The notes under the pieces: generated by a model
What the model saw: the letters and a program-made list of their open reading frames with translations, nothing else
Databases searched by the model: none
What the model was told of the DNA's origin: nothing
Made by a program: the position numbers and the translations under genes
In this document: positions 16,382 to 47,024 of the stretch, one piece after another
Layout: the number at the start of each line of letters is the position of its first letter
How positions within the stretch are numbered: the stretch's first letter is position 1
Source of the DNA: Terriglobia bacterium
GTDB lineage: Bacteria; Acidobacteriota; Terriglobia; Acidiferrales; UBA7541
DNA length: 50,183 nucleotides
NCBI GenBank assembly: GCA_020073585.1
Contig: JAIQEV010000025.1
Location: 1 to 50,183, forward strand
Direction of reading: 5' to 3'

Positions 16382-16458
16382 TGGTGGGCCTGGGGAGAGT
16401 CGAACTCCCGACAAACGGTTTAGGAAACCGCTGCTCTATCCATCTGAGCTACAGGCCC
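16382..16458 (-). tRNA. tRNA-Arg (CCT)
   Basis: 77 nt including an encoded CCA. Acceptor stem GGGCCTG/CAGGCCC, discriminator A. The anticodon loop TTCCTAA sits on the stem GCGGT/ACCGT, giving anticodon CCT. The T-arm contains GTTCGACTC. The cloverleaf is regular. Confidence 0.97.
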
Positions 16459-19063: not shown

Positions 19064-20272
19064 ATGGACCTCATTCGGATTTTTGACACCACCCTGCGCG
19101 ACGGCGAGCAATCGCCCGGCTTTTCCATGAACGCCGAGGAAAAAGTGCGCATGGCCCGGCAACTGGCCGCCCTGGGTGTGGACATCATCGAAGCCGGCTT
19201 CCCCATCGCCTCCAAGGGCGACCTGGAAGCGGTCAAGACCGTGGCGCGGGAGGTGCGCGATGCGCGCATTGCCGCGCTGGCCCGGGCCAAGCAGGAGGAC
19301 GTGGACGCGGCGCTGGAAGCGCTGGAGCCCGCCGCGCATCCGCGCCTGCACGTATTCTTCGCCACCTCCGACCTCCATCTGCGGGCTAAGCTCAACGTGA
19401 CCCGCGAGCAGGCCAGCGAAGCCATCGGGGCCATGATCCGCCGCGGCCGCCAGCGCGTCGGCGAAGTGGAGTTCTCCGCCGAAGACGCCAGCCGCAGCGA
19501 TCTCGACTATCTCTGCCAGGTCTGCAAAGTGGCCGTGGATGCCGGGGCCACCGTCCTGAACCTCCCGGACACGGTAGGCTACGCCGTACCCGAGGAATAT
19601 GCGGCGATGTTCCGCCGCGTGCGCGAATATCTGGGCGACCCGCAGGGCGTCACCTTCAGCGCCCATTGCCACAACGATCTGGGCATGGCCGTGGCCAATT
19701 CGCTGGCGGCGGTTCGCGCCGGCGCGCGGCAGATCGAATGCACCATCAACGGCATCGGCGAACGCGCCGGAAACGCCTCTCTGGAAGAGGTCGTGGTGGC
19801 CCTGGCCGTGCGCCAGACTTCCTTCGGACTGAAGACCAATGTGCACCTTGAGGAGCTGTTTACCTCCAGCCGCATGCTCTCGGAGATCACCGGCGTGCAG
19901 GTTCCCCCGAACAAGGCGGTGGTCGGCGCCAATGCCTTCGCCCACGAGGCCGGCATTCACCAGGACGGGATCATCAAGAATCCGCTGACCTACGAGATCA
20001 TCTCGCCGGAAACCGTGGGTGTGCCGGCGCGCTCGCTGGTCCTTGGCAAGCATTCCGGACGCAACGCCCTGCGCATGAATTTGCGCGACCTGGGCTACGA
20101 TCCCAGCGACACAGAACTGGCAGAGTGCTACCGCCGGGTAACCGCGCTGGCCGACCAAGCCAAGCAGGTGCGCCCGCGCGACCTCGTCGCCATTGCCCAT
20201 GAGGTGATGCGCCGCAAGCCGGCGGGTTTGGCCTCGGCCGCGACGGCTTCCCCGGCCCCGTCGGTGGCCTGA
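19064..20272 (+). CDS. leuA: 2-isopropylmalate synthase, short form without regulatory domain
   Basis: 402 aa. Condenses acetyl-CoA with 2-ketoisovalerate, the first step of leucine synthesis. The HMGL-like TIM barrel is complete: RIFDTTLRDGEQSPGFSMN, FSAEDASRSD, LPDTVGYAVP, HCHNDLGMAVANSLAAV (metal ligands) and NGIGERAGNASLEEVV. After FAHEAGIHQDGIIKN and GKHSGRNAL the protein ends at 402 residues with an Ala/Pro tail; the usual C-terminal leucine-sensing domain of about 110 residues is missing. Leucine feedback control is therefore doubtful. Homocitrate or citramalate synthase activity is an alternative, but leuB next to it supports leucine. An AGGGGGG stretch precedes the ATG closely. Confidence 0.88.
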   Translation: MDLIRIFDTTLRDGEQSPGFSMNAEEKVRMARQLAALGVDIIEAGFPIASKGDLEAVKTVAREVRDARIAALARAKQEDVDAALEALEPAAHPRLHVFFATSDLHLRAKLNVTREQASEAIGAMIRRGRQRVGEVEFSAEDASRSDLDYLCQVCKVAVDAGATVLNLPDTVGYAVPEEYAAMFRRVREYLGDPQGVTFSAHCHNDLGMAVANSLAAVRAGARQIECTINGIGERAGNASLEEVVVALAVRQTSFGLKTNVHLEELFTSSRMLSEITGVQVPPNKAVVGANAFAHEAGIHQDGIIKNPLTYEIISPETVGVPARSLVLGKHSGRNALRMNLRDLGYDPSDTELAECYRRVTALADQAKQVRPRDLVAIAHEVMRRKPAGLASAATASPAPSVA

Positions 20273-20486
20273 CGATCCTCCGCGCCCGCTTGACGGGGTG
20301 CGCACGGCGGCGCTTGGCTGCGCCCCTTACCCGGGAGCATCTTAGGGATGGAAGCGCTCCGCAGCGGAACGCCTGGGTAAGCCCCTAGCTGGGGCTGGGC
20401 CTTGCGGTTCTGGATCCGAGCTATTCTTATATGCGCCTGGCGCGCTCCGCACAGAACACGTTGCGAGCCCCGGGAGGGAGTTCACG

Positions 20487-21602
20487 GTGACCATGCTGAA
20501 GAAGACGATCGTGCTGCTGCCGGGCGATGGAGTCGGCCCGGAAGTGATTCGCGCCGCGACCGCCATCCTGCGCGAGTGCGCCACGGAGTTCGGCCACCAG
20601 TTCGATCTCCAGGAATTTCCGCTCGGCGGCGCGGCCATTGACGCTACCGGCGAGCCGCTGCCTGCGGCCACTCGCGAAGCCTGCCGCAAGGCCGACGCGG
20701 TGCTGCTCGGTGCGGTCGGCGGCCCCAAGTGGGACGCGCGGCCCGTGGGCCAGCGCCCGGAGAGCGGCCTGCTCGGCATCCGCAAGGAGCTGGGCCTGTA
20801 CGTCAACGTGCGCCCGGTGCGCCTGCGCGAGCCGCTGCGTGGCATCTCCCCCTTGAAGCGCGAGCGCCTCGGCGACCTGGATCTGGAAATCGTCCGCGAG
20901 TTGGCCGGCGGCATGTACTTCGGCGTGCGCGGCAACGAGCAGAGCGGCGGCGTCGAGCGCGCCTTTGACACCGAGAGCTATTCCACGCCGGAGATCGAGC
21001 GCATCGCCGTCTTTGCCTACAACCGCGCGGAGGGCCGCTCGCGCCGCCTCTGCTCGGTGGACAAAGCCAACGTGCTCACCAGCTCGCAGCTCTGGCGCCG
21101 CACCGTCTCCGGCATGAGCCACCTCTATCCCTCCGTGCAGCTCGAGCACATGTACGTGGACAACGCCGCCATGCAACTGGTGTTGCGCCCCACGCAGTTC
21201 GACGTGATCCTGACCTCCAACATGTTCGGCGACATTCTCAGCGACGAATCCGCCGCTCTGCTCGGCTCCATCGGACTGCTGCCTTCCGGCAGCTTCGGCG
21301 CCGGCGCCCCGCTTTTCGAGCCCATCCACGGCTCCGCCCCACAGATTGCCGGCAAGGACCAGGCCAATCCCATCGGCACCATTCTCAGCGTCACCATGAT
21401 GCTCCGCGACACCTTCGGCCTGGGCATCGAAGCCGACTGGGTCGAGCGCTCGCTGGATCGCATCCTCGCCGCCGGCTACCGCACCGGGGACATCGCCGAG
21501 CCCGGCTCCCGCGTCGTCGGCACCATCGCCTTCACCGAGCACCTCCGCCAGGAGATGCAGCTTACCCTCGGCCACGCCGAGCGCTACGGCTGGGGAGTCT
21601 AG
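20487..21602 (+). CDS. leuB: 3-isopropylmalate dehydrogenase
   Basis: 371 aa. NAD-dependent oxidative decarboxylation of 3-isopropylmalate. Family motifs: LLPGDGVGPEV at the start, LLGAVGGPKWD, ESGLLGIRKELGLYVNVRPVR, and DVILTSNMFGDILSDESAAL plus FEPIHGSAPQIAGKDQANPIGTI. The GTG at 20487 lies 7-8 nt after GGGAGGGAG and is preferred; an ATG two codons later is possible. It follows leuA by 214 bp of GC-rich spacer containing a GCCCC/GGGGC hairpin. The dehydratase genes leuC and leuD are not in the window. Confidence 0.95.
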   Translation: MTMLKKTIVLLPGDGVGPEVIRAATAILRECATEFGHQFDLQEFPLGGAAIDATGEPLPAATREACRKADAVLLGAVGGPKWDARPVGQRPESGLLGIRKELGLYVNVRPVRLREPLRGISPLKRERLGDLDLEIVRELAGGMYFGVRGNEQSGGVERAFDTESYSTPEIERIAVFAYNRAEGRSRRLCSVDKANVLTSSQLWRRTVSGMSHLYPSVQLEHMYVDNAAMQLVLRPTQFDVILTSNMFGDILSDESAALLGSIGLLPSGSFGAGAPLFEPIHGSAPQIAGKDQANPIGTILSVTMMLRDTFGLGIEADWVERSLDRILAAGYRTGDIAEPGSRVVGTIAFTEHLRQEMQLTLGHAERYGWGV

Positions 21603-21769: not shown

Positions 21770-24139
21770 ATGGTGCCATCTCACCCAACGCGAAGCACGG
21801 AAACCGCATCGGCCGCCGGCGGGCCGCTGACCTATTGGCGGGTGGAGGGCAGCCTGCTCGAGCTGGGCGCGCTGCGCCCGGTCGGCTACGTCACCTGGAA
21901 CGCGCAGAGCTTCTCCGAGCGCTGGGCCCGCCGCGTGGGCATGGCCGCCATGGCCCTGCTGCGCCCGCTGCTCTTTGCCGCCAGCCGCCAATGGGCCACG
22001 CGCTTTCTCTACACTCTGCTGCGCGGCGTCAGCCGCGACCGCCTGGATTCCCTCGGCGAAGAGTATTTCCAGTACGTGCTGAAGCCGCAGTTACGCCAGT
22101 CCGCCGCCGCCGAACTCACCGAGGCCCTGCGCCGCGGCGAACGCATCGTGCTGGTCAGCCAGGGCTTGGACCACATGATTCGCCCGCTGGCCCGGCATTT
22201 CGGCGTCTCCTGGATCATCGCCAACCGCCTCGAATTCCGCGATGGCCGCGCCACCGGCCGTCTCCTCGATCCCCTGGTGCGCCCGCGCCGCCCGCTGGCC
22301 TGGCTCTCCAGCGGCGCGGCGAACGGCCGCATCGAGAAGGAAGCATTGCCGCGCCAGCTCGGCGGCGCCGGCACTCCGGAATCCGCCGCCGCCGCGCTGC
22401 AGCCCGCCGCGCGCCCGAGCCCTGACGTGCAGCGCCCCGTGGTGCTCTTCGGCGCCGCCCCGCGCGTCCCGGAGCTGCGCGTGCGCGAAACGCTCGCCGG
22501 CAAGCACATCCTGCTCATCGGCGTCACCGGCTTCATCGGCAAGGTCTGGCTGGTCAATCTCCTGGAAGACATCCCGCAGATCGGCAAGATCACCCTGCTG
22601 ATCCGCCGCAACCGCACCACCACCGCGCGGCGGCGCTTCGAAAAAATCGTCGAGGAGTCTCCGACTTTCGACACCCTCCAGGAGCGCCACGGCCGCGGCC
22701 TGGCCGCCTTCCTGCAGCAGAAAGTGGAAGTGGTCGAAGGCGACGTCAGCATCTCCGGGCTGGGCCTGGAGGATGCCACGCGCGCGCGCCTCGGGAAATC
22801 GCTCGATCTCGTCGTCAACAGCGCCGGCCTCACCGATTTCAATCCCGACCTGCGCGACGCCCTCTCCTCCAACGTGGACTCCGCCGCGCACCTGCTCGAG
22901 TTCCTGCGCCAGTGCGACCACGCCGGCTTGATGCACCTCTCCACCTGCTACGTCATCGGCGCGCGCGACGGCCGCGTCACCGAGGAGCTCCAGGACAACT
23001 ACAATCCCGCGCACGACCCCGATTTCGACGCCGAGCGCGAGATCGCCTCCTTGCGCGAGACCATCCGCTGCGTCGAGGAGCGCGCCGAAAGCCCGGAACT
23101 TTCCGCCGCTCTGCGCCGCCAGGCCCTCGGCCGCGGTGGCGACCCCGCGGACGTGCCCCAGGGCGAGCTGGACGGCGTGCTCAAGCGCAACCGCATCCGC
23201 TGGGCGCGCAACCGCCTCACCCGCGTGGGCCTGCGCCGCGCGCAGCACCTCGGCTGGCCCAACACCTATACCTTCACCAAGAGCCTCGGCGAATCGCTTC
23301 TCGCGCGCCACGGGCGTGGCCTGGCCATCGCCGTCGTGCGCCCCTCCATCGTGGAGAGCTCCACGCACTCGCCCTTCACCGGCTGGAACGAGGGCATCAA
23401 CACTTCCGGTCCGCTCTCCTATCTCCTGGGCACCAACTTCCGCCAGCTCCCCTCCAACGAGCGCAAGTGCCTCGACGTCATTCCCGTGGACATGGTCTGC
23501 CGCGGCATGACCCTCATCGCCGCCGCCGTCGTCCGCCGCTGCCACGCGCGCCTCTATCAACTAGCCACCTCCGCCGTGAGCCCCTGCGACATGGGCCGCT
23601 CCATCGAATTGACCGCTCTGGCGCACCGCAAGCACTACCGCACCCAGCCGGGCATGGAGCACTGGTTCAAGCGCAAGTTCGAAACCATCCCGGTCTCCAA
23701 GCTGCGCTACGAGCGCCTCTCCATCCCCATGCAGAAGGCCGTCGTTTCCCGCATCAACCGCGTCGCCGACTCCCTGGGCATGAAGAAGCCCCCGCTGGCG
23801 CGCCAGGAGCGCGACCTCATCCGCGCCGAAAAACTGATCGAGCTCTACGAGCCCTTCATCCTCCACAACGAGCACGTCTTCGAGGCCGAAAACGCCCGCC
23901 TGCTCTCCGCCGCCCTTTCTCCCGAGGAACGCGAGCTCTTCGCTTTCGCTCCGGAAAATATTGACTGGTGGGACTACTGGATTAACATCCACATTCCGGC
24001 GCTGCGGCGCTGGTGCTATCCGCTCATGGAAGGGAGACCGCTCGAGGCGCGCGCCCCGCGGGAGCTCGGCTGGCCGGGCGAAACGGTGGCCGCGCCCGCT
24101 CCCGCGCCGCACTCCGATCCACTATGGCGATCTTCGTAA
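21770..24139 (+). CDS. Fatty acyl-CoA reductase (alcohol-forming) fused to a degenerate HAD domain
   Basis: 789 aa from the ATG at 21770; a TTG at 21698 in the same frame is less likely. Residues about 20-210 align by pattern with HAD-IB phosphatases ([38 protein letters not shown]) but the DxDGTL motif reads RVEGSL, so the nucleophilic Asp is gone. Residues about 245-640 are a male-sterility/FAR-type [33 protein letters not shown] and [11 protein letters not shown] (YxxxK catalytic). The last 130 residues match the FAR C-terminal helical domain ([33 protein letters not shown]). It probably reduces an acyl thioester to an alcohol with NADPH. First gene of a long colinear lipid cluster; overlaps the next gene by 16 bp. 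Confidence 0.82.
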
Positions 24140-25287
24140 CCGGCTCCACAGGCTATATCGGCAGCTACATCGTTGCCGGGCTGCTCACCGGGCATCGCGA
24201 GCCCCTCAATCTCCTGGTGCGCGCCAAGACGCAGCAGGAGGCGCGCGAGCGCCTCTGGCAGTCGCTGCAGTTGCATTTCGCCTTTCCCGAGTTCCACGAC
24301 CACCTGCGCGGCCGCGTGCGCATCTTCCTCGGCGATCTCACCGGCGAGCGCTTCGGCCTGAGCGGCGACGACTACCACGATCTCGTGGACACCACCGACT
24401 CCCTCATCCACTGTGCCGCCTCGCTCAACCGCAAATCGGAAAAGCAGTGCCTTAACGTCAATCTTCGCGGCTCCCTCGAGGTCATCCAGCTCGCCCGCCG
24501 CGCCCAGGACCGCCACGGCCTGCGCCGCTACAGCCACGTCAGCACCGTGGCCGTCGCCGGCCACCGCCAGAACGAAGTCGTCCAGGAAGACGCCTCCATT
24601 GACTGGGCCCGCTCCGACTACGATCCCTACGCGCGCACCAAGAAATTCTGCGAGCACATGGTCGCCCAGCTCATCCCCGACGTGCCGCGCACCATCTTCC
24701 GCCCGGCCATCGTTCTCGGCGACAGCCGCCGTCCGGAAACCACGCAGTTCGACATGGTGCGCGCCTTCTCCGTCCTCTCCAGCCTTCCCGTGCTGCCGCT
24801 GCGCCCCAATGACCGCATCGACATCGTGCCTGCGGATTATGTCGGCAAGGCCATCGTCGCCATCCACCAGAAGGACCAGGCCGCGCACCGCATCTATCAT
24901 CTTTCTTCCGGCACCGGCTCGCAGACCTACCGCGAGCTCACCGACGCCCTGGCCCAGGCCGGCGGATGGCGCCGCCCGCTCTACTGGCCGGGACTCGGCG
25001 GCCCGTTTTCCTCCACCGTGAACTGGCTAGCGCGGCGCAGCGGTTCCCTGGGCCGCGGCGCGGCGCTGCTCAAGGTTTTTTGGCCGTATCTGGTGTGGAA
25101 CACGGTCTTCGACAATTCCCGCGTCGTCGCCGAGCTGGGCGAAGCCCCCGCGAAATTTTCCGCCTACGCCTATCCGCTTCTTCAATTCAGCCGCAAGAAT
25201 GGTTTCCGCTATCCGGCGCAGCCCTGGCCCGCCGGCGCCGTGGCCGATGCCGCCGCCCAGGGAGCGGCGGGGAGCGCCGGCGCATGA
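24124..25287 (+). CDS. Thioester reductase-like SDR (NAD_binding_4)
   Basis: 387 aa from the ATG at 24124, 16 bp inside the preceding gene. An extended [22 protein letters not shown] nucleotide loop, [25 protein letters not shown], and [12 protein letters not shown] with the catalytic YxxxK. The pattern ([19 protein letters not shown]) is that of thioester reductase domains that release aldehydes from carrier-bound acyl chains, and it differs from the FAR-type partner upstream. The C-terminus (about 300-387) has a hydrophobic helix and an Ala-rich tail. Likely substrate is an acyl-ACP or acyl-CoA. Its stop codon overlaps the next start as ATGA. Confidence 0.82.
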
Positions 25288-26726
25288 CCGATTTTCTCCT
25301 CGTCGCCTGGGTCAGCGCGCTGATCGAGATCACGCGCATCGGCTGGGTCTGCGGACTCGGCCGCCGCTGGACCCCCGGGGAAAAGCTCAAGCTGCTCTTT
25401 GCCGGCTACAACGGCACGCGCAACACCGGCGCCGACGTGCGCGTCGAGGAGATGCTGCGCCAGGTGCGCCACGTCCTCGGCGCCGAGCACGTGGACTTCA
25501 GCGTCATGACCCAGAACTTCGAGCGCACCCGCGGCTATTTCGCGGGCACCCGCCAGGTGCACCTCCCCGACGTCTACCCGCCGTTTCTCTTCCGCGAGGT
25601 GCGCGCCAATCACGGAGTCATCGCCTGCGAAGGCTCGATGTTCAAGAGCAAGTTCGCCAACGCCCTCACCACCATGATGATCGGCTCGCTGGGCATTGCC
25701 TCTGCCGAGAACAAGCTTTCCCTGGGCTACGGTGCCGAAGCCGGGCACATGGATGCGCTCCTCGAGCGCATGTGCGCGCGCTACGTCCGTGATTCGCTGA
25801 TCATCACCCGCAATCCCGAATCGCAAACTCTTCTCAGCCGCCTCGGCATTCCCACCGAGCTCGGTACGGACACCGCCTGGACTTTCGAGCCGCACCCGCC
25901 CGAATACGGCCGCCAGGCGCTGCGCGCCGCGGGCTGGGATGAGAAGACTCCGGTCCTCGTCCTGTGCCCCATCCACCCCTTCTGGTGGCCGGTGAAGGCT
26001 TCCATCGCCAAGTATCTGGCGCGCGTCACCACCGGCGCATTCCAGGACAGCCAGTACCGCACCGTCTATTTCCACGAGTCCGGCGCCGAAGTGGACGCCA
26101 AGTACCGCCACTACATCTCCGCCTTTGCCCGCGCCACCGCGGCCTTCCGCGAGCGCCACAATGTCTTTCCGGTGCTGGTAGCCATGGAGCGGCTCGACGC
26201 CCGCGCCTGCCGCGACGTCGCCGCGCAGCTTCCCGGCGCTCCGGTGCTCACCTCCGACGACTACGACATGTTCCAGCTCGTCAGCATCCTGCGGCAGTGC
26301 TCGCTCATGGTCTCCTCGCGCTATCACGGCATCGTCACCTCCATGCCCGGCCTGGTCGCCTCTGCCGGCGTCACCATGGACGAGCGCATCCGCAACCTCA
26401 TGACCGAGCGCGGCCACCAGCATCTCTTCCTCACCGTGGATGATCCGCAGCTCGAGCCCAAGCTGCTGGCCGTTCTCGAGCGCCTGCACGCCGAGCAGGA
26501 CACCGTGCGCGAGGGCATTGCGCGCACCGTCGTGCGCAACCTCAAGGTCATGGCGCGCATGGGCGTCTTCCTCGAGGACGCCGTCCGCCGCCAGTACCCC
26601 GAATTTCCGCTGCGCAGCGGCGTGCTCCGCTGGGAAGACTATCTCCCGCCGCTCAGCCCCAATCTGCGCGCGCTCGCCGAGCGCTGCGATTCCGCTCCGG
26701 AGCTCGCGCGCGCCGCGCAATCCTGA
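25284..26726 (+). CDS. Polysaccharide pyruvyl transferase family protein
   Basis: 480 aa, ATGA overlap with the preceding gene. After a hydrophobic N-terminal helix (about 3-22) comes [25 protein letters not shown], the glycine/Asn-rich opening of the PF04230 family, and later [22 protein letters not shown], the matching C-terminal motif. Members add ketal pyruvate to sugars of cell-surface polymers or act on related polyisoprenoid or glycan substrates. Here the gene sits between acyl reductases and an acyl-AMP ligase, so a lipid-linked sugar or glycerol acceptor is plausible. The family is diverse; transfer of pyruvate is assumed, not shown. Confidence 0.78.
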
Positions 26727-26731
26727 TTCCC

Positions 26732-28456
26732 ATGCCCAATTTTCTCGAAAACATCTTTGCGCAGCTCCAGCGGGCCACGGACCGCGTGGTCCTGCAGGAG
26801 CTGCACGCCGGGGGTCTGACCGGCGTGCGGGGCGGGGAACTCCTCGAACTGGTGCGCCGCGCCCGCGCCTTTTTGCGCCGTGCCGGCCTCCAGCCCGGCG
26901 ACCGCTGCGCCCTGCTCGGCCCCAACTCCATCCGCTGGATTGCGCTGGACCTCGCGCTGATGGCCGAAGGCGTCGTGGTCATCCCCCTCTATGCGCGCCA
27001 GGCTCCCGCCGAGCTTGCCGCCATGCTCCAGGACGCCCAGCCCCGCTTTCTCTTCTGCAGTGACGCGCCGCTCGGCGAAGGCATCGCCGCTCTGTGGCCG
27101 CCCAGCGGGCCGCAACTTCCGCCGCGCGTGCTCTTCGAGGAAGTCCTGCGCGAAGACGCCGCCGGCGCGGCCATCCCCGATGCGCCCGTGGCCCTGCAGG
27201 ATTCCGCGCTCCTGACCATCATCTACACCTCCGGCACTTCGGGCGAGGCCAAGGGCGTGTGCCTGAATCTCGGCAACGTCAACCACATGCTCGGCTGCAC
27301 CACCGCGCGCCTGAACCAGCTCATGGCTTCGGCATCCCGCCCCGACCGCGTCTTCCACTATTTGCCCTTCAATTTTGCCGGTTCGTGGATACTGCTGCTC
27401 TCCTGCCTCGCGCGCGAGAGCCAGCTCGCGCTCTCCATGGACCTCACGCGCCTCGCGGACGACATGCGCCTCGCCGCCCCGGACTATTTCCTGAACGTGC
27501 CCACGCTGCTCGAGCGCGTGCGCCGCGGCGTCGAGGAGGCCATCGCCAAGCGCGGCACGCCCATCCGCGCGCTCTTTGCCCGCGCGCGCGACGCCTGGCA
27601 GCGCCAGCACGCCGGGCGCGGCCAGGCCTTCGACGGCGTCTGGTTCGATCTCGGCCGCATGCTCATCTTTTCCAAAATCCGCGCGCGCTTCGGCCCCCAT
27701 TTGCGCGCCATCATTTGCGGCTCCGCGCCCCTGGCCCCGGAGACCCAGCAGTTCTTCCACATGCTCGGCATCCCCGTCCTGCAGGTCTACGGGCTCACGG
27801 AAACCACCGCCATCTGCACCATGGACGATCCGCGCCAGCCTCCCGAGCCCGGCTTCGTGGGCCCGGCCATCCCGGGGATCGAGATGAAGACCGGGGAGCA
27901 CGAGGAGATCCTCGTCCGCGGCCCGCACATCTTCCCCGGTTACTGGAAGCGTCCGGAAGAGACGGCGCGCGTGCTGCACGACGGCTGGTTCCACACCGGC
28001 GACCAGGGCGAGGTCAACGTGCGCGGCAACTGGCGCATCGTCGGCCGCCTCAAGAACCTCATCATTCTCAATTCCGGCCACAACATCGCTCCCGAGCCCA
28101 TCGAGGAGAAGCTGCAGCAGCTTCTCCCCGCCGCGCAACAGGTGGTCCTGGTGGGCAACGGCCGCGGTTACCTCGGTGTGCTGGTCAGCGGCGCCGTCGA
28201 GGAATCCGCCGTACAGGCCGCGCTCGACGCCCTCAATCCGGGTTTGCCGCATTACCGCCAAGTGCGCGCCTTCCGCGTCCTCGGCGAAGCCTTTACCCCC
28301 GAAAATGGCCTGCTCACCGCCAACGGCAAGCTCCGCCGCGACGCCATCAACTCCCGCTTCGCTTCCGAAATCAATGCCATGTACGATGTCACAGGTGGCC
28401 GCGAAGCGGTCGGCAAGCAAGGTGGCCGCGAAGCGGCCAACAGGAAGCCGGCATGA
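26732..28456 (+). CDS. Acyl-AMP ligase (long-chain acyl-CoA/ACP synthetase family)
   Basis: 574 aa, five bases after the preceding stop. ANL-superfamily motifs: IIYTSGTSGEAKG (phosphate loop), VLQVYGLTETTAICT, DGWFHTGDQGEVN and GRLKNLIILNSGHNIAPEPIEE, then the late lysine region TANGKLRRDAI. It activates a fatty acid as acyl-adenylate and passes it to CoA or a carrier. The last 20 residues contain GGREAVG and GGREAAN, encoded by two tandem copies of the dispersed palindrome, so the natural C-terminus was probably near YDVT. The ATGA stop overlap couples it to the enoyl-CoA hydratase. Confidence 0.9.
   Translation: MPNFLENIFAQLQRATDRVVLQELHAGGLTGVRGGELLELVRRARAFLRRAGLQPGDRCALLGPNSIRWIALDLALMAEGVVVIPLYARQAPAELAAMLQDAQPRFLFCSDAPLGEGIAALWPPSGPQLPPRVLFEEVLREDAAGAAIPDAPVALQDSALLTIIYTSGTSGEAKGVCLNLGNVNHMLGCTTARLNQLMASASRPDRVFHYLPFNFAGSWILLLSCLARESQLALSMDLTRLADDMRLAAPDYFLNVPTLLERVRRGVEEAIAKRGTPIRALFARARDAWQRQHAGRGQAFDGVWFDLGRMLIFSKIRARFGPHLRAIICGSAPLAPETQQFFHMLGIPVLQVYGLTETTAICTMDDPRQPPEPGFVGPAIPGIEMKTGEHEEILVRGPHIFPGYWKRPEETARVLHDGWFHTGDQGEVNVRGNWRIVGRLKNLIILNSGHNIAPEPIEEKLQQLLPAAQQVVLVGNGRGYLGVLVSGAVEESAVQAALDALNPGLPHYRQVRAFRVLGEAFTPENGLLTANGKLRRDAINSRFASEINAMYDVTGGREAVGKQGGREAANRKPA
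28393..28441 (-). repeat. Two tandem palindromes at the end of the acyl-AMP ligase gene
   Basis: A 17-bp unit (AGGTGGCCGCGAAGCGG) at 28393-28409 is repeated exactly at 28420-28436, 27 bp apart; each is the core of a minus-strand copy of the window palindrome (TTGGCCGCTTCGCGGCCAC type). Both are read in frame without a stop. Confidence 0.75.
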
Positions 28457-29256
28457 AATCCTTTACGGGCAAAACGCTGCGCTGGGAATTGCGCGAGGGA
28501 ATCCTCGAACTCACGCTCGACCACGAGCCCGCCAACGAGATCGGTTCGGAGATGCTCGCGGAGCTCGAGAAATTTGCTGCCGCGCTCGAAGCGCTCTCTT
28601 CCGAAGCCAGCGTCTGCATCATCGCCAGTGCCCGCAAGCACGGCTTTTCCGCGGGCGCCGACCTGCGCGAGCTGTATCACGCTGCCGCGCCGCTCCCCGA
28701 AAAAGAGCGCCTGGCGGGCGTGCGCAACTTCCTCGAGCGCATCCACAAGGTCCTGAACGCCATTGACGCCGCTCCCCTCGTCACCATCGCCGCGGTGCAC
28801 GGCGTCTGTTTCGGCGGCGGCCTCGAGCTGGCTCTGGCCTGCGACCTCATCGTCGCCGACAAGATGGCCCGTTTCGCCTTTCCCGAGCTGCGCCTCGGCC
28901 TGATCCCCGGTTTCGGCGGCATCCCGCGCCTCAAACGCGACTTGGGCAATGCCTTTGTGCGCGATCTCCTGCTCACCGGCCGCAGCGTGAACGCCGCGCG
29001 CGCCCAGGCCGTGGGCCTCGTCGCGCAGCTCGCCGGCGAAGGCGAAGCCCTCCGCCTGGCGCGCTCCACCGCCGCGCAGATCGCCAAGTTCGACCCCGGC
29101 ACGCGCATCGCCGCCAAGAGATTCATCAAGCCCATTCCCTACGACGAGCTGCGCCGCGAAATCGACATCTTCTGCGAACTCTTCATGCGTCCTGCGGTCA
29201 TGGCCGGCCTCAAGAAATTCGTCGACTCTTCCGACGCCATGCCTTATCTGCCCTGA
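28453..29256 (+). CDS. Enoyl-CoA hydratase/isomerase family protein
   Basis: 267 aa, starting inside the ATGA overlap with the ligase gene. Crotonase fold with both oxyanion-hole segments: HGFSAGADLRELY and VHGVCFGGGLELALACDLIVAD, then PELRLGLIPGFGG, where the Glu matches a catalytic position of hydratases. C-terminal helices include IAAKRFIKPIPYDELRREID. It hydrates or isomerises an enoyl thioester; within this cluster it may set or remove a double bond or act on a carrier-bound intermediate rather than run beta-oxidation. No thiolase or acyl-CoA dehydrogenase accompanies it. Confidence 0.9.
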   Translation: MKSFTGKTLRWELREGILELTLDHEPANEIGSEMLAELEKFAAALEALSSEASVCIIASARKHGFSAGADLRELYHAAAPLPEKERLAGVRNFLERIHKVLNAIDAAPLVTIAAVHGVCFGGGLELALACDLIVADKMARFAFPELRLGLIPGFGGIPRLKRDLGNAFVRDLLLTGRSVNAARAQAVGLVAQLAGEGEALRLARSTAAQIAKFDPGTRIAAKRFIKPIPYDELRREIDIFCELFMRPAVMAGLKKFVDSSDAMPYLP

Positions 29257-29356
29257 TCTCCGCCGCCCGCCTCTTTACTGTTAGGGACCCTGCTTGCCGC
29301 AAACGCCCGCGAACGTGGCATGGTTATTAGTACCCCGGCCACGCCATCGCACTGTA

Positions 29357-29405
29357 CGGACAAGCATTCCCCGGTAATCCCGGGAAGCGAATCGTCCCTT
29401 GTCCG
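29357..29405 (+). promoter_or_regulatory. Structured leader upstream of the CocE-type hydrolase
   Basis: Outer arms CGGACAAG (29357-29364) and CTTGTCCG (29398-29405) enclose an inner TTCCC/GGGAA hairpin. The ribosome site GGGAGGAG follows a few nt later. No known riboswitch class is recognised; it could be an attenuator, mRNA stabiliser or dyad operator. Confidence 0.4.
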
Positions 29406-29423
29406 CAGCAGGGAGGAGCCTTC

Positions 29424-31283
29424 ATGCGCAGTACCGTTCTCCGAGGAATCGCCGCGATTCTCCTTTGCTTTTGCGGCGCGCACGCGGCTTCCGCGCAGCT
29501 CTCCGTGGCCTCCTTTCCGGCCCCCGCGCCGAAGTATGCAATCCGCGTCGAAAAGAGCGTGCGCGTGCCCATGCGCGACTCCGTGCTCCTCTCCACCGAT
29601 CTCTATTTTCCCGTGACCGCGAATCCCGTTGACCGCTTCGCGGTCACTAAGATGAAAGACCGCTTTCCCGTCATTCTCATCCGCACCCCCTACGACAAGA
29701 ACGCCGACTGGAATGTCGCCAACGCCCGCCGCTTTGCCGCTCAGGGCTACGTCGTCGCCGTTCAGGATGTGCGCGGAAAATACGAATCCGGCGGCAGCTT
29801 CACCGTTTCCGCCGCGGACACCGACGACGGCACGGCTACTGTCGAGTGGCTGACCGAACAGCCCTGGTCCACCGGAAAGGTCGGCACCACCGGCTGCTCC
29901 TATTCCGGCGAAAACCAGGTGGAGATGGCCAAGAACCGCAGCGTGCACCATCTGGCGATGATCCCCCAGGCCGCCAGCGGCGCCCTGCAGTATTTCGGCG
30001 CGCGGCGCGGCGGCGCCTTCGAGCTGGCCGCCAGCGCGGACTGGTTTCTCTCGAACGGCGTCAAGGAGCGGCCGCGGCCCGCGCCCGGCGCTTCCCGTCC
30101 GCCCGAGTTCACTCCTCCGAAAGTGGACTGGCCCGTGCTCTTGCGCAGCCTGCCGCTGAAGGGCCTGATGAGCCGCGCGGGCATGCCCGCGACGGATTGG
30201 GACGACTTCGTCGCGCATCCCGAGGGCGATCCCTGGTGGCGCACCCTCGGCTACGTCACCAGCGAGGACAAGTTCGACGTTCCGGCCCTGTTCGTGGACT
30301 CCTGGTACGACTACGGCGCGGGCGACACCTTCCGCCTCCTGGATCTGCTGCAGAAAAACAGCGAGAGCCAGCTCGCCCGCGAAAATCAGTTCGTCGTCAT
30401 CGCCCCGACGACGCACTGCCGCTACGAGCAGGCCACCGAGCACACCGTGGTCGGCGCGCGCGATTTCGGCGACGCGCGCTTCGATTTCTTCGGCCTCTAT
30501 CTCGCCTGGTTCGACCACTGGCTCAAGGGCGTGGACAACGGCGTCGAAAAAATGCCCAAGGTGCAGTTCTACGTCATGGGCAAGAATGCGTGGCGCGCCG
30601 AAAACGAGTGGCCCCTGGCGCGCACCCAGTTCATGCATCTCTACCTTAGCAGCGAGGGGCACGCCAACGGCCGCTTCGGCGACGGCGTTCTTTCCCTCGA
30701 CCGCCCCGCCGAGGAAACCCCCGATCACTTTGCCTACGATCCGCGCTCCCCCGTGCCCTCCACCGGCGGACCGGACTGGGGCGCGGCCCTCGGCGACCTG
30801 AAATCTGGCGCCGTGGATCAATCCGACGTCGAGATGCGCCAGGACGTCCTCGTTTACTCCACCCCGCTCCTCGAAAAGGGCGCCGAAGTGACCGGCCCGG
30901 TCGAAGTCGTCCTCTACGTCTCTTCGGACGCTCCGGACACGGATTTCACCTCCAAGCTCGTGGACGTCTATCCCGATGGCACCCCCTACAACGTGCAGGA
31001 AGGCATCCAGCGCGCCCGCTACCGCGAGGGCTACGATAAGCCGGTGTTCCTGAAACCCGGCGAAACCTACGAGCTGCACATCAACCTCAACGCCACCAGC
31101 AATTATTTCGGTCCCGGCCATCGCATCCGCCTGGAAGTCTCTTCCAGCAACTTCCCGCGCTTCGATCGCAACCTCAACACCGGCGGCGCCAACTTCGACG
31201 AGGCCGTCTGGCACGTCGCCCGCAACACCATTCACCACTCCGGCTCTCACGTCTCCTATATCCTTCTGCCGGTCATCCCCTGA
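29424..31283 (+). CDS. Secreted CocE/NonD-family alpha/beta hydrolase
   Basis: 619 aa with a signal peptide (residues 1-24, ending ASAQ) and GGGAGGAG before the ATG. X-Pro dipeptidyl-peptidase S15/CocE fold: PVILIRTPYDKN, VQDVRGKYESGG, and GTTGCSYSGENQ with the nucleophilic Ser; FVDSWYDYG and IAPTTHCRYE supply the probable Asp and His. The C-terminal jelly-roll domain (about 440-619) has DTDFTSKLVDVYPDG and PGHRIRLEVSSSNFPRFDRN. It hydrolyses an ester or amide outside the cytoplasm. Residues about 69-75 (VDRFAVT) come from an in-frame palindrome copy, lengthening a surface loop. It interrupts the lipid cluster with its own leader, so a lipid-related substrate is possible but unproven. Confidence 0.9.
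   Translation: MRSTVLRGIAAILLCFCGAHAASAQLSVASFPAPAPKYAIRVEKSVRVPMRDSVLLSTDLYFPVTANPVDRFAVTKMKDRFPVILIRTPYDKNADWNVANARRFAAQGYVVAVQDVRGKYESGGSFTVSAADTDDGTATVEWLTEQPWSTGKVGTTGCSYSGENQVEMAKNRSVHHLAMIPQAASGALQYFGARRGGAFELAASADWFLSNGVKERPRPAPGASRPPEFTPPKVDWPVLLRSLPLKGLMSRAGMPATDWDDFVAHPEGDPWWRTLGYVTSEDKFDVPALFVDSWYDYGAGDTFRLLDLLQKNSESQLARENQFVVIAPTTHCRYEQATEHTVVGARDFGDARFDFFGLYLAWFDHWLKGVDNGVEKMPKVQFYVMGKNAWRAENEWPLARTQFMHLYLSSEGHANGRFGDGVLSLDRPAEETPDHFAYDPRSPVPSTGGPDWGAALGDLKSGAVDQSDVEMRQDVLVYSTPLLEKGAEVTGPVEVVLYVSSDAPDTDFTSKLVDVYPDGTPYNVQEGIQRARYREGYDKPVFLKPGETYELHINLNATSNYFGPGHRIRLEVSSSNFPRFDRNLNTGGANFDEAVWHVARNTIHHSGSHVSYILLPVIP
29628..29647 (+). repeat. Dispersed palindrome, exact consensus copy inside the hydrolase gene
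   Basis: GTTGACCGCTTCGCGGTCAC, hairpin GTGACCGC/GCGGTCAC type, read as VDRFAVT in frame. Confidence 0.75.
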
Positions 31284-31305
31284 CGCGGCGGCGGGCCGCG
31301 CCGCT

Positions 31306-31333
31306 GCCCAGGCGGCTTTCCGCCACCCTGGGC
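31306..31333 (+). terminator. GC-rich hairpin after the hydrolase gene
   Basis: GCCCAGG-CGG-CTTT-CCG-CCACCCTGGGC folds into a stable stem 23 bp after the stop codon. No T-run follows, so termination would be factor-assisted or weak. Confidence 0.45.
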
Positions 31334-31398
31334 CCCGAAAGCCCGCACCGCCGCCCCCGCCGCCTCTCCTTTCGCTTTTCCATCTCTCGCGGGGATGA

Positions 31399-31404
31399 TA
31401 AATT
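31399..31404 (+). promoter_or_regulatory. Leaderless-type -10 box of the ACP gene
   Basis: TAAATT ends 7 nt before the ATG at 31412 in a short AT-rich patch; no Shine-Dalgarno precedes the gene. It implies that the ACP-ligase-kinase-acyltransferase half of the cluster has its own promoter. Confidence 0.4.
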
Positions 31405-31411
31405 TATCTAT

Positions 31412-31654
31412 ATGCGCACACTGGAGCAGACCACGCAGGAAGTCCTGGCCCTGGCGGCGCAGCATTTCCACGTGCCCCTGGAAACGCTGGCCCCCAACGA
31501 CGATTTCTTCAAAAAGCTCGGCATTGACAGCCTGCAGGCCCTCGAGCTGCTCACCCGCCTGGAAAACCATTTCGGCATCGAGCTCCCCGACTACGAAGTG
31601 CAGGGCGTCAGCGATTTCCGCACTCTCGCCGACCGCATCCAGGCCCGCCTGTAA
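31412..31654 (+). CDS. Dedicated acyl carrier protein
   Basis: 80 aa, acidic, four-helix ACP. The phosphopantetheine site is [10 protein letters not shown] with Ser40. Helix I ([15 protein letters not shown]) and helix III ([12 protein letters not shown]) are typical. It differs from a housekeeping AcpP (no DSLDTVE/LVMALEEEF) and is not next to fab genes, so it probably serves the lipid cluster: the following acyl-AMP ligase overlaps its stop codon (TAATG). The start codon sits in an AT-rich patch behind a TAAATT box. It would need activation by a phosphopantetheinyl transferase encoded elsewhere. Confidence 0.93.
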
Positions 31655-33363
31655 TGCTGGACCTCACCAAGTATGAGTCGCTCGGCGCGGCTCTCAAGGA
31701 CGCCCTCGGCCGCTTTGCCGGGGAAGTCTGTCTGATCGAGGCCGACCGCGAAAAAGAGAAAGAGCGCCTCACCTACCGCGATTTCCAGCAGCGCGCCTTC
31801 CCGCTCGCCCGGGCCCTGCAGGACGCCGGTTTCGCCGCCGCCGATCGCGCCTCCATCATCATGACCAATCAGTCCAAGTGGCTGATTTCCGCGGCGGCCA
31901 TCTTCTTCCGCGGCGGCGTGCTCGTGCCCCTCGACTACAAGCTCACCCCCGCCGAGCACTGGCAGCTCCTGAAGCACTCCGGCGCCACCGTGCTGATCAC
32001 CGAATATCCCATCTGGCGGCAGCTCGCCGCCGCGCCCGGCCGCGCCGCAAGCGCCGTGCGCACCGTCCTCGTCAGTGAAGCCCCGCCCAACGCCGATCTC
32101 GCCGGTGCGCAGCGCTGGGAAGAGTTCCGCGGCGCGGGCGCGCCGGAGTTTCTCCCGCGTAAGCGCAGCGACGCAGCCTGCATCGTCTATTCCTCGGGTA
32201 CCGGCGGCCAGCCCAAGGGCTGCATCATGACCCACGAGAACTATCTCGCGCAGTGCGTCGCCCTCACCGCGCTCTATCCCTTCTGGCCCGGCGTGCGCTA
32301 TCTGAGCATTCTCCCCACCAACCACGCCATCGATTTCATGGTCGGCTTCATCGGCCCGTTCACCTGCGGCGCCGCCGTCGTGCACCTGCGCACCCTCCGC
32401 CCCGAGTACGTCCGCGAGGCTTTCCCGAAGTACAAGATCACCTACGTCAGCCTGGTGCCGCTGGTCCTGAAAAATCTGCAGAAGGGCCTGCAGGCGCGCT
32501 TCGCCGCGCTGCCCGCGGGGAAGCGCCGGGTGTTCCACGCGCTCGTCGCGCTGAACAAGCTCTTCACCCGCGGCCGCCCGCGCCTGGCCCTCAGCCGCCT
32601 GCTGCTTAAGCAGGTGCACGCCGCGTTCGGCGGCGAACTCCGCGCCATCATCGTCGGCGGCGCCTTCACCGAGCCGCGGACCCTGCAATTCTTCTATGAC
32701 CTGGGCATTCCCGTGGCCAACGGTTACGGCCTCACCGAGGCCTGCACGGCCATCACCGTGAACGACCTGAAGCCCTTTCGCGCGGACACTGTCGGCAAGC
32801 CGTTGCCCGGCGTGGAAATTCGCATCGTCCAGCCGGATGCCGGCGGCATCGGCGAAGTCGCCGTGCGCGGACGCACCGTCATGTCCGGCTACCTCAACGC
32901 GCCGGAGCTGACCGCGGAAACCATCGTGGACGGCTGGCTGATGACCGGCGACCTCGGCCGCATCGACGCCGGCGGCCACCTGCAGCTCTTCGGCCGCAAG
33001 AAAAACATGATCGTCACCGAGGAAGGCAAGAACATCTACCCCGAGGACATCGAAAACGTTTTCGAGGGCCTCCCGGTGAAGGAGTTCTGCGTCTTTGCCG
33101 CCAACTACATTTGGCCGCGCCGCTCCATGAGCGGCGAGCAGCTCGTCCTGGTGCTGTCTCTCGAGCCCGGGCACTCCTTCACCCCCGAGCTGCTGCGCGA
33201 AATCAACGCCCGCAACGCCCGCCTGCTCAATTACAAACGCATTCATGGCGTGGTATTGTGGGCCGAGGATTTTCCCCGTACGGCCTCGTTGAAGATCAAA
33301 CGCAATCTTCTCGCCGAGCGGCTCGCGCAACTCGACCGCGACACCGCCGTTCGGCCCCTGTGA
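31654..33363 (+). CDS. Acyl-AMP ligase / acyl-ACP synthetase
   Basis: 569 aa, TAATG overlap with the ACP gene, which points to loading of that ACP. ANL motifs: [44 protein letters not shown] and [24 protein letters not shown], and the late lysine near [12 protein letters not shown]. It forms acyl-AMP from ATP and a fatty acid and transfers the acyl group to a thiol. It is clearly different in sequence from the first ligase of the cluster (26732-28456), so two acyl chains or two steps are probably served. Confidence 0.92.
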
Positions 33364-33392
33364 GGAGCTTGCCGGCGCTTCGTGAAGGAACT

Positions 33393-34295
33393 GTGAAGGA
33401 ACGCTTCTTCGCCATCGTGAATCCCGCCGCCGGCGGCGGCCGCTCCGCCAAGCTGGCTGGCCCCGCGCTCGCGCGCCTGCGCGATGCGGGCGTGCGCGTG
33501 GACGTCATCGCTTCCACCGGACCCGGCCACGCCGTCGAGCTGGCCCACGAGGGCTACCGGCAGGGCTACCGCAAGTTTCTGGCCGTGGGCGGCGACGGCA
33601 CGGCCCACGAAATCGTCAACGGCATCTTCGCCGCGGACCCGGCTCCCGAGCGCGTGGCGCTGGCTTTCCTCCCCCTCGGCACGGGCAACTCCTTTCTCCG
33701 CGATTTCTCCGAAAACGGCGCGGAGGCCGCCATGCAGGCGCTCCTCGCGGGCCGCACGCGCCGCTGCGATCTTCTCCGCCTCACGCACGCCGCGGGCGCC
33801 CTCTATTCCCTCAATCTCCTGAGCGTGGGTTTCACTGCCGACGTGGGCGCGCTCGCCAACCGCCGCTTCAAGCGCCTCGGCGAACTCGGCTATCTGCTCG
33901 GCGTTTTCGTGCGCGTCCTGCAGTTGCACCGCCGCGCCTTCGCGTTACGCTGCGACGCCGACACCGACTGGGACCAGCGCCGCTGCCTGTTCCTCACCTT
34001 CTGCAACAGCAAATACACCGGCGGCACCATGCTCATCGCTCCCCAGGCCGATCCCACTGACGGCCTCATCGAGTATGTGCGCTGGGGGCCCATCGGCCGC
34101 CTCGCCCTGCTGCGCATGCTCCCCCGCCTCTATGACGGCACGCACCTCGCCCATCCCCTGGCCTCCCGCCGCGCCGTGCGCCGCGTGGAATTCAATCTTC
34201 CCGCGCCCGTCGACGTTCTCGTGGACGGCGAGGTATTCACCCTCGACTGCCGCTCCCTGGACATTCTTCCCGCCGCCGTGGACGTTTACATATGA
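33393..34295 (+). CDS. Diacylglycerol kinase-like lipid kinase (DagK/YegS family)
   Basis: 300 aa from the GTG at 33393; a GTG at 33360 in frame, overlapping the previous stop, would add 11 residues and could be the coupled start. Motifs: FFAIVNPAAGGGRSAKLA, FLAVGGDGTAHEIVNGI (GGDGT nucleotide site) and LPLGTGNSFLRDF. The C-terminal beta-sandwich ends VDGEVFTLDCRSLDILP. It phosphorylates a diacylglycerol or related lipid (possibly a sphingoid or ether lipid) using ATP at the membrane surface. The ATGA overlap joins it to the plsC-like gene. Confidence 0.92.
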   Translation: MKERFFAIVNPAAGGGRSAKLAGPALARLRDAGVRVDVIASTGPGHAVELAHEGYRQGYRKFLAVGGDGTAHEIVNGIFAADPAPERVALAFLPLGTGNSFLRDFSENGAEAAMQALLAGRTRRCDLLRLTHAAGALYSLNLLSVGFTADVGALANRRFKRLGELGYLLGVFVRVLQLHRRAFALRCDADTDWDQRRCLFLTFCNSKYTGGTMLIAPQADPTDGLIEYVRWGPIGRLALLRMLPRLYDGTHLAHPLASRRAVRRVEFNLPAPVDVLVDGEVFTLDCRSLDILPAAVDVYI

Positions 34296-35032
34296 GGAGC
34301 GTGTGGCCGGCCGTGCGCAGCGCGCTGCTGTGGCTTGTCAGCGGGCTGCATTTTTTCACCCTCGTTCCGCTGCTCATCCTGCTGGCCGCGGTGCTCGATC
34401 CCCGCAAGCATGATTGGCTGCAGCGCGGCCTCTGCCGCCGCATCGTCTTTCTGGCCGGCGCCAAACTCGTCGTGCACCGCGCCCCCGGCTTCGATCCCCG
34501 GCGCACCTGCTTCTTCATGGTCAATCACGTCAACCTCTTCGATCCCTTCGTGCTCTACAGCGCCGTCCCGCAATTCGTCCGCGGCTGGGAGCTGGAATCC
34601 CATTTCAAGATTCCCGTGTACGGCTGGCTGATGAAGCGCTTCGGCAACGTTCCCGTCCCGGACGTGCGCCGCCCCTCCGATCTCAAGCGCATGTGGCGGC
34701 TCACCCAGGCGGCGATTGACGGCGGCACCAGCCTCATCGTTTTCCCGGAGGCCCGGCGCACCCGCGACGGCCGGCTCAGCGAATTTCAGGACGGCGGATT
34801 CCGCGTCGTGCAGCAACTCGGCGTCCCCGTCGTTCCCGTCACCGTGGTCGGCTCCTTCGAACATCACCGCACCGGCGACTGGATGCTCCGTCCCGCCACC
34901 ATCACCGTCTACATCCACGACACCATCGAGACCAAAGGCCTCGCCAAGGACGATGTCCCCGCCCTGCGCGACCGCGTCCGCGCGATCATCGCCGCACCGC
35001 TGGATGAATGGTTGAAAAAAACGAGAGGGTAG
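34292..35032 (+). CDS. PlsC-type 1-acylglycerol-phosphate acyltransferase
   Basis: 246 aa. An N-terminal hydrophobic segment (about 10-35) anchors it in the inner membrane. Acyltransferase motifs: MVNHVNLFDPFVLYS (HX4D variant), MKRFGNVPVPD, and FPEARRTRDGRLSEFQDGGF where the usual FPEGTRS reads FPEARRT. It acylates lysophosphatidate or a similar glycerol phosphate from acyl-ACP or acyl-CoA; the cluster ACP and ligase would supply the donor. Last gene of the colinear set. The altered FPEGTRS box may mean another acceptor. Confidence 0.9.
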   Translation: MRSVWPAVRSALLWLVSGLHFFTLVPLLILLAAVLDPRKHDWLQRGLCRRIVFLAGAKLVVHRAPGFDPRRTCFFMVNHVNLFDPFVLYSAVPQFVRGWELESHFKIPVYGWLMKRFGNVPVPDVRRPSDLKRMWRLTQAAIDGGTSLIVFPEARRTRDGRLSEFQDGGFRVVQQLGVPVVPVTVVGSFEHHRTGDWMLRPATITVYIHDTIETKGLAKDDVPALRDRVRAIIAAPLDEWLKKTRG

Positions 35033-35068
35033 GGAAGGGCTTCGGTTGCCCGTTTCAGGGATTGCCGC

Positions 35069-35686
35069 TCAGAGGCTCAGCTTGATGCCGGGCAGGGTGC
35101 GCCCGGCGCGCGTTTCCTGCCACGTAAAAACGATCCGGTGGATCACTGTGATCGTGGACACCACCGCAATCACCCACAGCACCGGCCCCATGCGGTTGAA
35201 CATCCCGCCGATGATCAGCAGCACCAGCCGCTCCGGCCGCTCCATGAACCCCGCCTTGCATAGCGGGATCAGCGATTCCGCGCGGGCCCGCGCATAGCTC
35301 ACCATCACCGAACCCGCCGTGGCGGCCGCCGCCAGCGCCACGTACGGCGTGCGCCCGCTCACCGAATAATAGACCAGCAGCCCCATGTACAGCGCCATGT
35401 CCGCGTAGCGGTCCAGCGTTGAATCGTAGAACGCTCCGAACGCCGTCACCCGGTTCTGCCGCCGCGCCACCTGCCCGTCCAGCATGTCCAGAAAGCCCGC
35501 GAAGAAAATGATGATCGCTCCGGTGCGGAAGCGCCCCGTGGCGAACATCGCCGCCGCTCCGAAATTCACCAGCAGCCCGAGAAAGGTCAGGAAGTTGGGG
35601 TTGATCCCGGTCGCCGCCAGCGCCCCGACTATCCTGTCCAGCAGCCACTTGCTGCCGCTGCCGATCGCTCCTGTGAACGTAGCCAT
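35069..35686 (-). CDS. CDP-alcohol phosphatidyltransferase
   Basis: 205 aa from the ATG at 35686; an ATG 17 codons upstream (35737) is also possible. The full signature DGx2ARx8Gx3Dx3D is present in LDGQVARRQNRVTAFGAFYDSTLDRYAD. About six membrane helices follow the family pattern. It joins an alcohol to a CDP-activated lipid with loss of CMP, as in phosphatidylglycerol-phosphate or phosphatidylinositol synthases; the alcohol is not deducible. It converges on the plsC-like gene with 36 bp between stops, completing a glycerophospholipid route (acylation, phosphorylation, head-group transfer). Confidence 0.92.
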   Translation of the reverse strand: MATFTGAIGSGSKWLLDRIVGALAATGINPNFLTFLGLLVNFGAAAMFATGRFRTGAIIIFFAGFLDMLDGQVARRQNRVTAFGAFYDSTLDRYADMALYMGLLVYYSVSGRTPYVALAAAATAGSVMVSYARARAESLIPLCKAGFMERPERLVLLIIGGMFNRMGPVLWVIAVVSTITVIHRIVFTWQETRAGRTLPGIKLSL

Positions 35687-35965: not shown

Positions 35966-36042
35966 TGGTGGGCCTGGGTGGACTTGAACCACCGACCTCG
36001 CCCTTATCAGGGGCGCGCTCTAGCCACCTGAGCTACAGGCCC
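35966..36042 (-). tRNA. tRNA-Ile (GAT)
   Basis: 77 nt including encoded CCA. Acceptor stem GGGCCTG/CAGGCCC; anticodon loop CTGATAA on stem CGCCC/GGGCG gives GAT. D-arm and T-arm (GTTCAAGTC) regular. Not next to rRNA. About 280 bp upstream toward the phosphatidyltransferase contain no convincing gene. Confidence 0.97.
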
Positions 36043-46915: not shown

Positions 46916-47024
46916 TCTTCCTAAACTCTATCGTGACGCGGGCCCCCAAGCGAGGTATCGTTTGACCCGGGGATACCGCTTTTGTAACCTGCTCTCACAC
47001 ACGCATCCCGGGAGAAACCCTGCC

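Follow-up and report, generated by a model that had tools for sequence, protein, structure and literature searches.

The locus considered here occupies positions 21770-35686 of a 50,183-nucleotide stretch of DNA (the window), namely contig JAIQEV010000025.1 of a Terriglobia bacterium, and it raises the question of what a compact row of acyl-activating, reducing and glycerolipid-modifying genes may build in an acidobacterium, and how it stands to elb, the ether-lipid gene cluster of Myxococcus xanthus. The genome (handle G000) comprises 4.03 Mb in 113 contigs, of which the window is C83. The locus is best called a conserved lipid-assembly unit, a variant of the elb kind with an unusual pseudophosphatase-reductase fusion; no description of this gene set was found in literature searches, which left most subscription papers outside their coverage. 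That it is one lipid-assembly unit in which an acyl group is reduced to an alcohol we regard as highly probable, and we place at about one half the probability that it works in the manner of an elb ether-lipid machinery with its parts unfused, likely making an alkyl-containing (ether) glycerolipid.

A nine-gene unit and its conservation

Pfam and the translations assigned the eleven reading frames of the locus to the families named in the initial annotation, thereby confirming its description of a colinear lipid-assembly unit with its own acyl carrier protein (ACP), two ligases and two reductases. The frames are as follows.

21770..24139, plus strand: HAD-FAR, a HAD domain fused to a fatty acyl reductase (FAR) (Pfam HAD 1.1e-16, NAD_binding_4 1.9e-52, Sterile 7.5e-11)
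24124..25287, plus strand: thioester-reductase-type SDR (TIGR01746 4.7e-37; MxaA R domain 4u7w 7e-21)
25284..26726, plus strand: GT-B-fold protein of the PF04230/CsaB-like (pyruvyl transferase) superfamily (PF04230 34.5 bits)
26732..28456, plus strand: ANL ligase 1, FadD11/CAR-adenylation-like, CAR being carboxylic acid reductase (PF00501 1.8e-56; NF038343 188 bits)
28453..29256, plus strand: crotonase, an enoyl-CoA hydratase/isomerase (PF00378 7.6e-38)
29424..31283, plus strand: S15/CocE-NonD hydrolase, secreted-looking, outside the unit (TIGR00976 385 bits)
31412..31654, plus strand: dedicated ACP (PF00550 1.1e-14)
31654..33363, plus strand: ANL ligase 2, a likely acyl-ACP synthetase directly after the ACP (PF00501 4.4e-69)
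33360..34295, plus strand: YegS/DagK-type lipid kinase, DAGK (PF00781 3.6e-26, YegS_C 1.1e-24); its start was placed by hand from the sequence and then checked
34292..35032, plus strand: PlsC-type acyltransferase (PF01553 7e-17)
35069..35686, minus strand: CDP-alcohol phosphatidyltransferase, phosphatidylinositol-phosphate-synthase-like, a neighbour outside the core (PF01066 5.9e-18; 6h5a 7e-24)

The genes from HAD-FAR through crotonase form one block, in which neighbours overlap by 1-16 bases with a single 5-base gap, and those from ACP through PlsC form another, in which every junction is overlapping, within the same range. The S15 gene stands between the two blocks, separated from them by 167 and 128 bases.

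The initial annotation had proposed a search for the same gene order in related genomes as its check, with non-conservation counting against it. The order is indeed conserved beyond chance. All nine genes, without S15, were found in the same order and strand in 16 of the 20 relatives' loci first read, the remaining four having been fetched for weaker, elb-like FAR matches. A profile scan for the GT-B protein across 84,980 named species genomes then gave 356 related stretches, the best 80 of which were used for the analysis of order and, where the flanks sufficed (43 loci), for gene counts by identity thresholds; as these loci were picked by their GT-B match, the counts measure linkage to the GT-B gene, and several loci belong to the same genomes as those with G handles here. 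Eight genes stood in order in 40 of the 43 flanked loci and nine in 22, and no adjacent pair was out of order in the best 80 of 356. HAD-FAR, SDR, GT-B and ligase 1 were each found in 43/43, crotonase, ligase 2 and DAGK in 41/43, ACP in 40/43, and PlsC in 23/43. The first four genes were also kept in all eight HAD-FAR loci read from other families. The titles of the best 80 of 356 name acidobacterial groups, bar one record titled Betaproteobacteria that seems to be the same as G006:C5, a same-genus genome; the named relatives are metagenome-assembled Acidobacteriota of Terriglobia, group 2 ('gp2') and Candidatus Acidiferrum/Acidoferrales.

The real unit is thus smaller than the ten plus-strand genes and convergent CDP-alcohol transferase initially proposed: it consists of nine plus-strand genes, HAD-FAR through PlsC without S15. 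The CDP-alcohol transferase, present in 19/43 flanked loci and mainly in close relatives, lies outside the conserved unit. S15, present in 1/43, stood between crotonase and ACP in no more than three genomes, G000, G009 and G008 (L147 is G008 again), across the loci read, and S15/CocE was therefore rejected as a pathway enzyme and is regarded as a local insertion. The crotonase-ACP gap (window 29257-31411) is an insertion spot whose contents differ between loci: in L150 it is filled by a LuxR-type regulator and a pair of HtrA-like trypsin/PDZ proteins, with similar frames in some other loci, and in L201 a FabH-like ketoacyl synthase (KAS) III, with a similar frame in L220.

The presence of the genes was next compared in a class sample of 151 genomes (GT-B at E 1e-20, HAD-FAR matches above 400 bits, ligase 2 at E 1e-120) and a phylum sample of 396. 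In the class sample, HAD-FAR occurred in 50 genomes and ligase 2 in the identical 50, while GT-B matched in 48 of these and in 0 of the other 101; such numbers are inflated by shared ancestry, and the computed chance of this co-occurrence, 2e-37, is not to be taken at face value. In the phylum sample the GT-B profile matched 14 of 396 genomes; 13 of these matches were strong, and HAD-FAR was present in 12 of the 13 genomes concerned, the exception being G528. Family f1 had the cluster in 27 of its 29 listed members, and in G152 ligase 2 is retained although some 144 kb of their common contig separate it from HAD-FAR. The unit is inherited nearly all-or-none. The two genomes with HAD-FAR and ligase 2 and no GT-B match are G135 and G166; in G166 the HAD-FAR gene heads toward a contig start 0.6 kb away, and the contig break may hide the next genes. 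Both belong to family f6, whose other listed FAR matches are elb-like, and their carriage of HAD-FAR and ligase 2 instead (G135:C466, G166:C33) suggests transfer or mis-binning. It is to be noted that one genome has, at locus L146, a divergent second GT-B paralogue (G227:C148:28490-29836) scoring 385 bits, versus 842 for the cluster copy.

As to the surroundings, HMGL-like/homocitrate-synthase-type and isopropylmalate-dehydrogenase-family genes lie immediately upstream (window 19064-21602), a position kept in close relatives, and about 11 kb downstream lie a patatin-like phospholipase and a 3-hydroxyacyl-CoA dehydrogenase/crotonase fusion (window 46034-46915 and 46527-49448). Minus-strand tRNA genes were found at 16385-16458 and 35969-36042, one of which flanks the cluster on the side of the CDP-alcohol transferase.

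The HAD-FAR protein and its partner enzymes

The first gene had been taken for a FAR-type reductase, which holds for its larger part, an alcohol-forming fatty acyl reductase with a Sterile domain at about residues 236-770; an HAD-IB domain at about residues 20-180 had been overlooked. In this domain the catalytic DxDGT is replaced by WRVEGS (W23 and R24 each in 89, E26 in 87, G27 in 90 and S28 in 84 of 90 alignment rows), and the HAD-IB test found the motif I aspartate nucleophile gone, with R24 and E26 in its stead. The Pfam HAD profile was unmatched past position 166 of 189, an end that carries the last catalytic motif. By comparison, two HADs from elb-side loci matched the profile from 1 to 188 of 189; one elb-side HAD frame, in L118, has FFDVDGT near its start, after a few residues, and an elb-side HAD can be aligned with HAD-FAR beginning where its own catalytic motif begins. 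Against two relatives the HAD part gave dN/dS values of 0.22 and 0.28, consistent with purifying selection, which was seen on all genes of the unit; the HAD-FAR linker gave 0.93 in one comparison and 0.20 in the other. Because of the WRVEGS replacement, the unmatched profile end and the purifying selection, the domain has very likely lost its phosphatase chemistry and kept a role, which may be ligand binding. A fused and strongly conserved dead phosphatase is an unusual enzyme design.

The catalytic residues of the other enzymes appear to be in place, the roles of the scored motifs being general knowledge. Those of the FAR, Y500/K504, occur in 28/28 rows, the SDR YxxxK (Y169/K173) in 100/100, both crotonase glutamates (E125 and E145) in 91/91, ACP Ser40 in 83/83, the DAGK GGDGT in 76/76, and PlsC H79 and D84 in 49/49. 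The motifs of both ligases are kept with few exceptions, Lys533 of ligase 1 being found in 97/100 rows with gaps in the other three. Judged by these residues, the SDR, FAR, crotonase, ACP, ligases, DAGK, PlsC and GT-B proteins all look active. The predicted model of the FAR has rice DPW (7eoz) as its closest structure, and a review lists DPW as a fatty acyl-ACP reductase yielding alcohol.

The ligase and SDR alignments bear on one alternative, a split CAR-like secondary-metabolite pathway in which ligase 1, the ACP and the SDR would correspond to the A, T and R parts and supply an aldehyde for a small molecule rather than for the membrane. Ligase 1 indeed aligns with CAR adenylation domains (5msc), and the SDR with the reductase domains of nonribosomal peptide and polyketide synthases. 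We nonetheless consider such a pathway very improbable, as the unit includes DAGK and PlsC and as carriage by nearly every listed f1 member is unlike secondary metabolism.

The GT-B protein had been proposed to catalyze pyruvyl transfer. Its match to PF04230 (34.5 bits) does exceed the gathering cut-off of 25.3, R346/H348 (R-x-H) is found in 105/105 rows, and a GT-B fold is predicted; the match is distant, however, and the CsaB equivalog TIGR03609 was missed (66.1 bits, cut-off 213.1). Superposed over some 330 residues, the AlphaFold model (pLDDT 86), which has an N-terminal helix at 2-22, matched UDP-GlcNAc 2-epimerases at Z 22.5, and PimA and MGD1 at Z of about 20. A profile search for relatives of solved structure found none at E 0.1, and Pvg1-type pyruvyl transferase structures were not among the Foldseek or VIA-align matches listed, an absence that excludes nothing. 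On the model, the donor would be either phosphoenolpyruvate or a nucleotide sugar.

These results also bear on whether the product could be an ester glycerolipid made acidic by pyruvyl or in another way, in which the reductases shape the chain end or a hydroxyl and the glycerol bond stays an ester. The PF04230 score and the invariant R-x-H would suit it, and according to PMC13274423 iso-diabolic tetraesters are among the membrane-spanning lipids of acidobacteria; the CsaB shortfall and the lack of a profile match to solved structures speak the other way, and we judge this product decidedly unlikely.

Comparison with elb

According to PMC9131029, ElbD of M. xanthus combines a FAR, a ligase, an ACP and an acyltransferase domain, ElbB is an HAD protein, and ElbE and ElbA belong to the NAD-dependent epimerase/dehydratase family; disruption of elbD strongly lowered alkyl and vinyl ether lipids, and of the activities those of ACP and ligase, but not that of FAR, were demonstrated in vitro. 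ElbD-type loci have already been reported from Acidobacteriota (PMC9426513, PMC11868695) and from Poribacteria (PMC9131029, PMC9426513).

It is for the FAR that kinship to this system is supported. The window FAR is 37% identical to an ElbD-type FAR (330 bits), and across eight cluster genomes the identity is about 34-40%. At E 1e-30, FARs were found in 61/396 phylum genomes, of which 12 were HAD-FAR and 49 others; 43 of the 49 sit in frames of 1442-1573 amino acids. Two such long-frame elb-side proteins were run through Pfam, and both contained FAR, ligase, ACP and PlsC; among the elb-side loci fetched, the FAR lay in a frame longer than 1300 amino acids in 11/12. Beside the ElbD-type gene, L113 has HAD and LarA_N (ElbC) genes and L118 has HAD and DAGK, and a DAGK gene adjoins it in L118, L119 and L121. 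In the FAR tree, with a distant SDR as outgroup, two ElbD-type groups flank the HAD-FAR clade (99/99), the root being unsure from long branches and the FARs all coming from within the phylum. Ligase 2 is homologous to the ElbD ligase domain (31%). HAD-FAR and an elb-like FAR were never found in one genome (29 with the former and 6 with the latter among 41 relatives; 50 and 30 among the 151 class genomes at E 1e-30; overlap 0), as expected for alternatives; four of these elb-like loci (L048-L051) were read. Overall, in its core of FAR, ACP and ligase the cluster probably functions as elb does. We also observed, in the same class, a partly split elb-type locus (L051:8601-16234) with a separate FAR, an ACP-ligase-PlsC protein, an HAD and LarA_N, and a small frame between.

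Several observations, gathered here, weigh against reading the unit as an unfused elb relative. First of all, the either/or pattern of HAD-FAR and elb-like FARs tracks families and is thus confounded by ancestry. Secondly, the linkage of the second block and the order loosen with distance from the window genome: in the eight loci of other families all nine genes were in order in one and eight genes in two more, L180 and L224 are without crotonase to DAGK, and PlsC was not found in 20/43 flanked clusters, nor in 14 loci rechecked at E 1e-5. Thirdly, the ligase-ACP-PlsC half of ElbD is best matched by a separate fused gene in the window genome and in G009; in the former this gene (G000:C37) scored 389 bits to the ElbD C-half versus 240 for ligase 2, which was the best ElbD ligase match in only 4/8 genomes. 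Among the eight cluster genomes, ElbC (LarA_N) gave no match in four and weak matches in four; in G033 the query reached 57% over nearly its full length, and G193 is the query's own genome. ElbE of L113, the one query used, had no match in the window at 1e-4. The window genome also encodes two proteins with PF09989, a domain of PlsA/Ger, and another ether route is possible; ether lipids in this organism, if found, would thus not alone point to the cluster. Finally, Pontiella, a published elbD carrier, showed no ether lipids (PMC11868695).

Since ElbC and ElbE were not found, ligase 2 was the best match in 4/8 genomes and the separate fused gene matched better, the cluster is not filed as elb. 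The earlier comparison with elb, in which the functions are split into separate proteins, is upheld for the FAR, by identity and tree, and holds in part as regards a split ElbD. A clean 'de-fused ElbD' with all modules orthologous was rejected for the ligase-ACP-PlsC half, which the fused gene matches better. The GT-B protein was likewise rejected as a remote ElbC: its profile had no match (E up to 1) among 1363 frames from 16 elb-side loci, and the ElbC of L113 is LarA_N. An Aas/LplT reading of G000:C37, resting on an MFS neighbour, was dropped, as the neighbouring frame had no Pfam match.

The loose attachment of PlsC is relevant to another possibility, namely that the unit yields free fatty alcohols, wax-like esters or an alcohol-capped outer-layer glycolipid and no ether glycerolipid, with the GT-B protein placing sugar or pyruvate on an alcohol or hydroxy lipid, and PlsC and DAGK being salvage genes. 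FAR and SDR are the best-defined activities; sugar-handling enzymes and lipid glycosyltransferases (PimA, MGD1) are among the structural matches of the GT-B model, and Pfam found no alkylglycerone-phosphate synthase family member among the eleven genes. The retention of DAGK in nearly all flanked loci, however, fits poorly, as does the kinship of the FAR to ElbD-type FARs, given the low ether lipids of elbD mutants in M. xanthus (PMC9131029). We consider this possibility rather unlikely.

A proposed scheme and known systems

For the unfused elb relative we infer the substrates, the sequence of reactions and the ether bond as follows. Ligase 2 would load its partner ACP with a fatty acid, and the SDR and HAD-FAR would take the acyl-thioester to the aldehyde and then the alcohol; the dead HAD domain, no longer hydrolysing phosphate, may hold a phosphorylated glycerolipid beside the reductase. 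Ligase 1 and crotonase might make a second, modified acyl chain as a CoA ester, the glycerol backbone would be phosphorylated and acylated by DAGK and PlsC, and the membrane-leaning GT-B protein would add the head group, pyruvyl or sugar. An ether lipid is named as the product tentatively, at somewhat less than an even chance. Least secure are the ether bond, the GT-B donor, and what ligase 1 and crotonase do.

A bolder version, which we consider unlikely, makes the unit a further bacterial ether-lipid route apart from elb and Ger/PlsA: the HAD pseudophosphatase would hold a glycerophosphate ester by its head while the tethered acyl chain is reduced to an alkyl ether, supplying ether lipids, possibly related to branched glycerol dialkyl glycerol tetraethers (brGDGTs), in soil Acidobacteriota that are without elb. 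According to PMC11868695, the brGDGT pathway of Acidobacteria is unclear, as only some subdivision 4 genomes have an elb cluster or agps homologues. The present cluster differs from these in its genes and is widespread among other Acidobacteriota; it bears on how Acidobacteria make ether bonds and makes that question testable by expression and lipidomics.

Comparison with known systems places the unit as follows. Bacterial ceramide genes include an ACP, an acyl-ACP synthetase and an SDR, and the cluster shares this trio of ACP, ligase and SDR; it differs in that Pfam found no aminotransferase-type gene among its eleven genes. With the CsaB/PF04230 polysaccharide pyruvyl transferases the GT-B protein shares the superfamily match, the predicted GT-B fold and the R-x-H, but it scores under the CsaB equivalog cut-off, is encoded in a lipid operon and has the extra N-terminal helix. 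The plant fatty acyl-ACP reductase DPW, the best structural match, shares the FAR fold with HAD-FAR, but is not known to have an HAD domain and serves another pathway, that of the pollen wall. With elb, lastly, the cluster has in common a FAR, an ANL ligase, an ACP, a PlsC-type acyltransferase and an HAD domain. Its functions are, however, carried by separate proteins, whereas ElbD is a single fused FAR-ligase-ACP-acyltransferase; its HAD domain is fused to the FAR and has very likely lost the phosphatase activity expected of an ElbB; and the cluster adds a thioester-reductase SDR, the GT-B protein, a second ligase and a crotonase.

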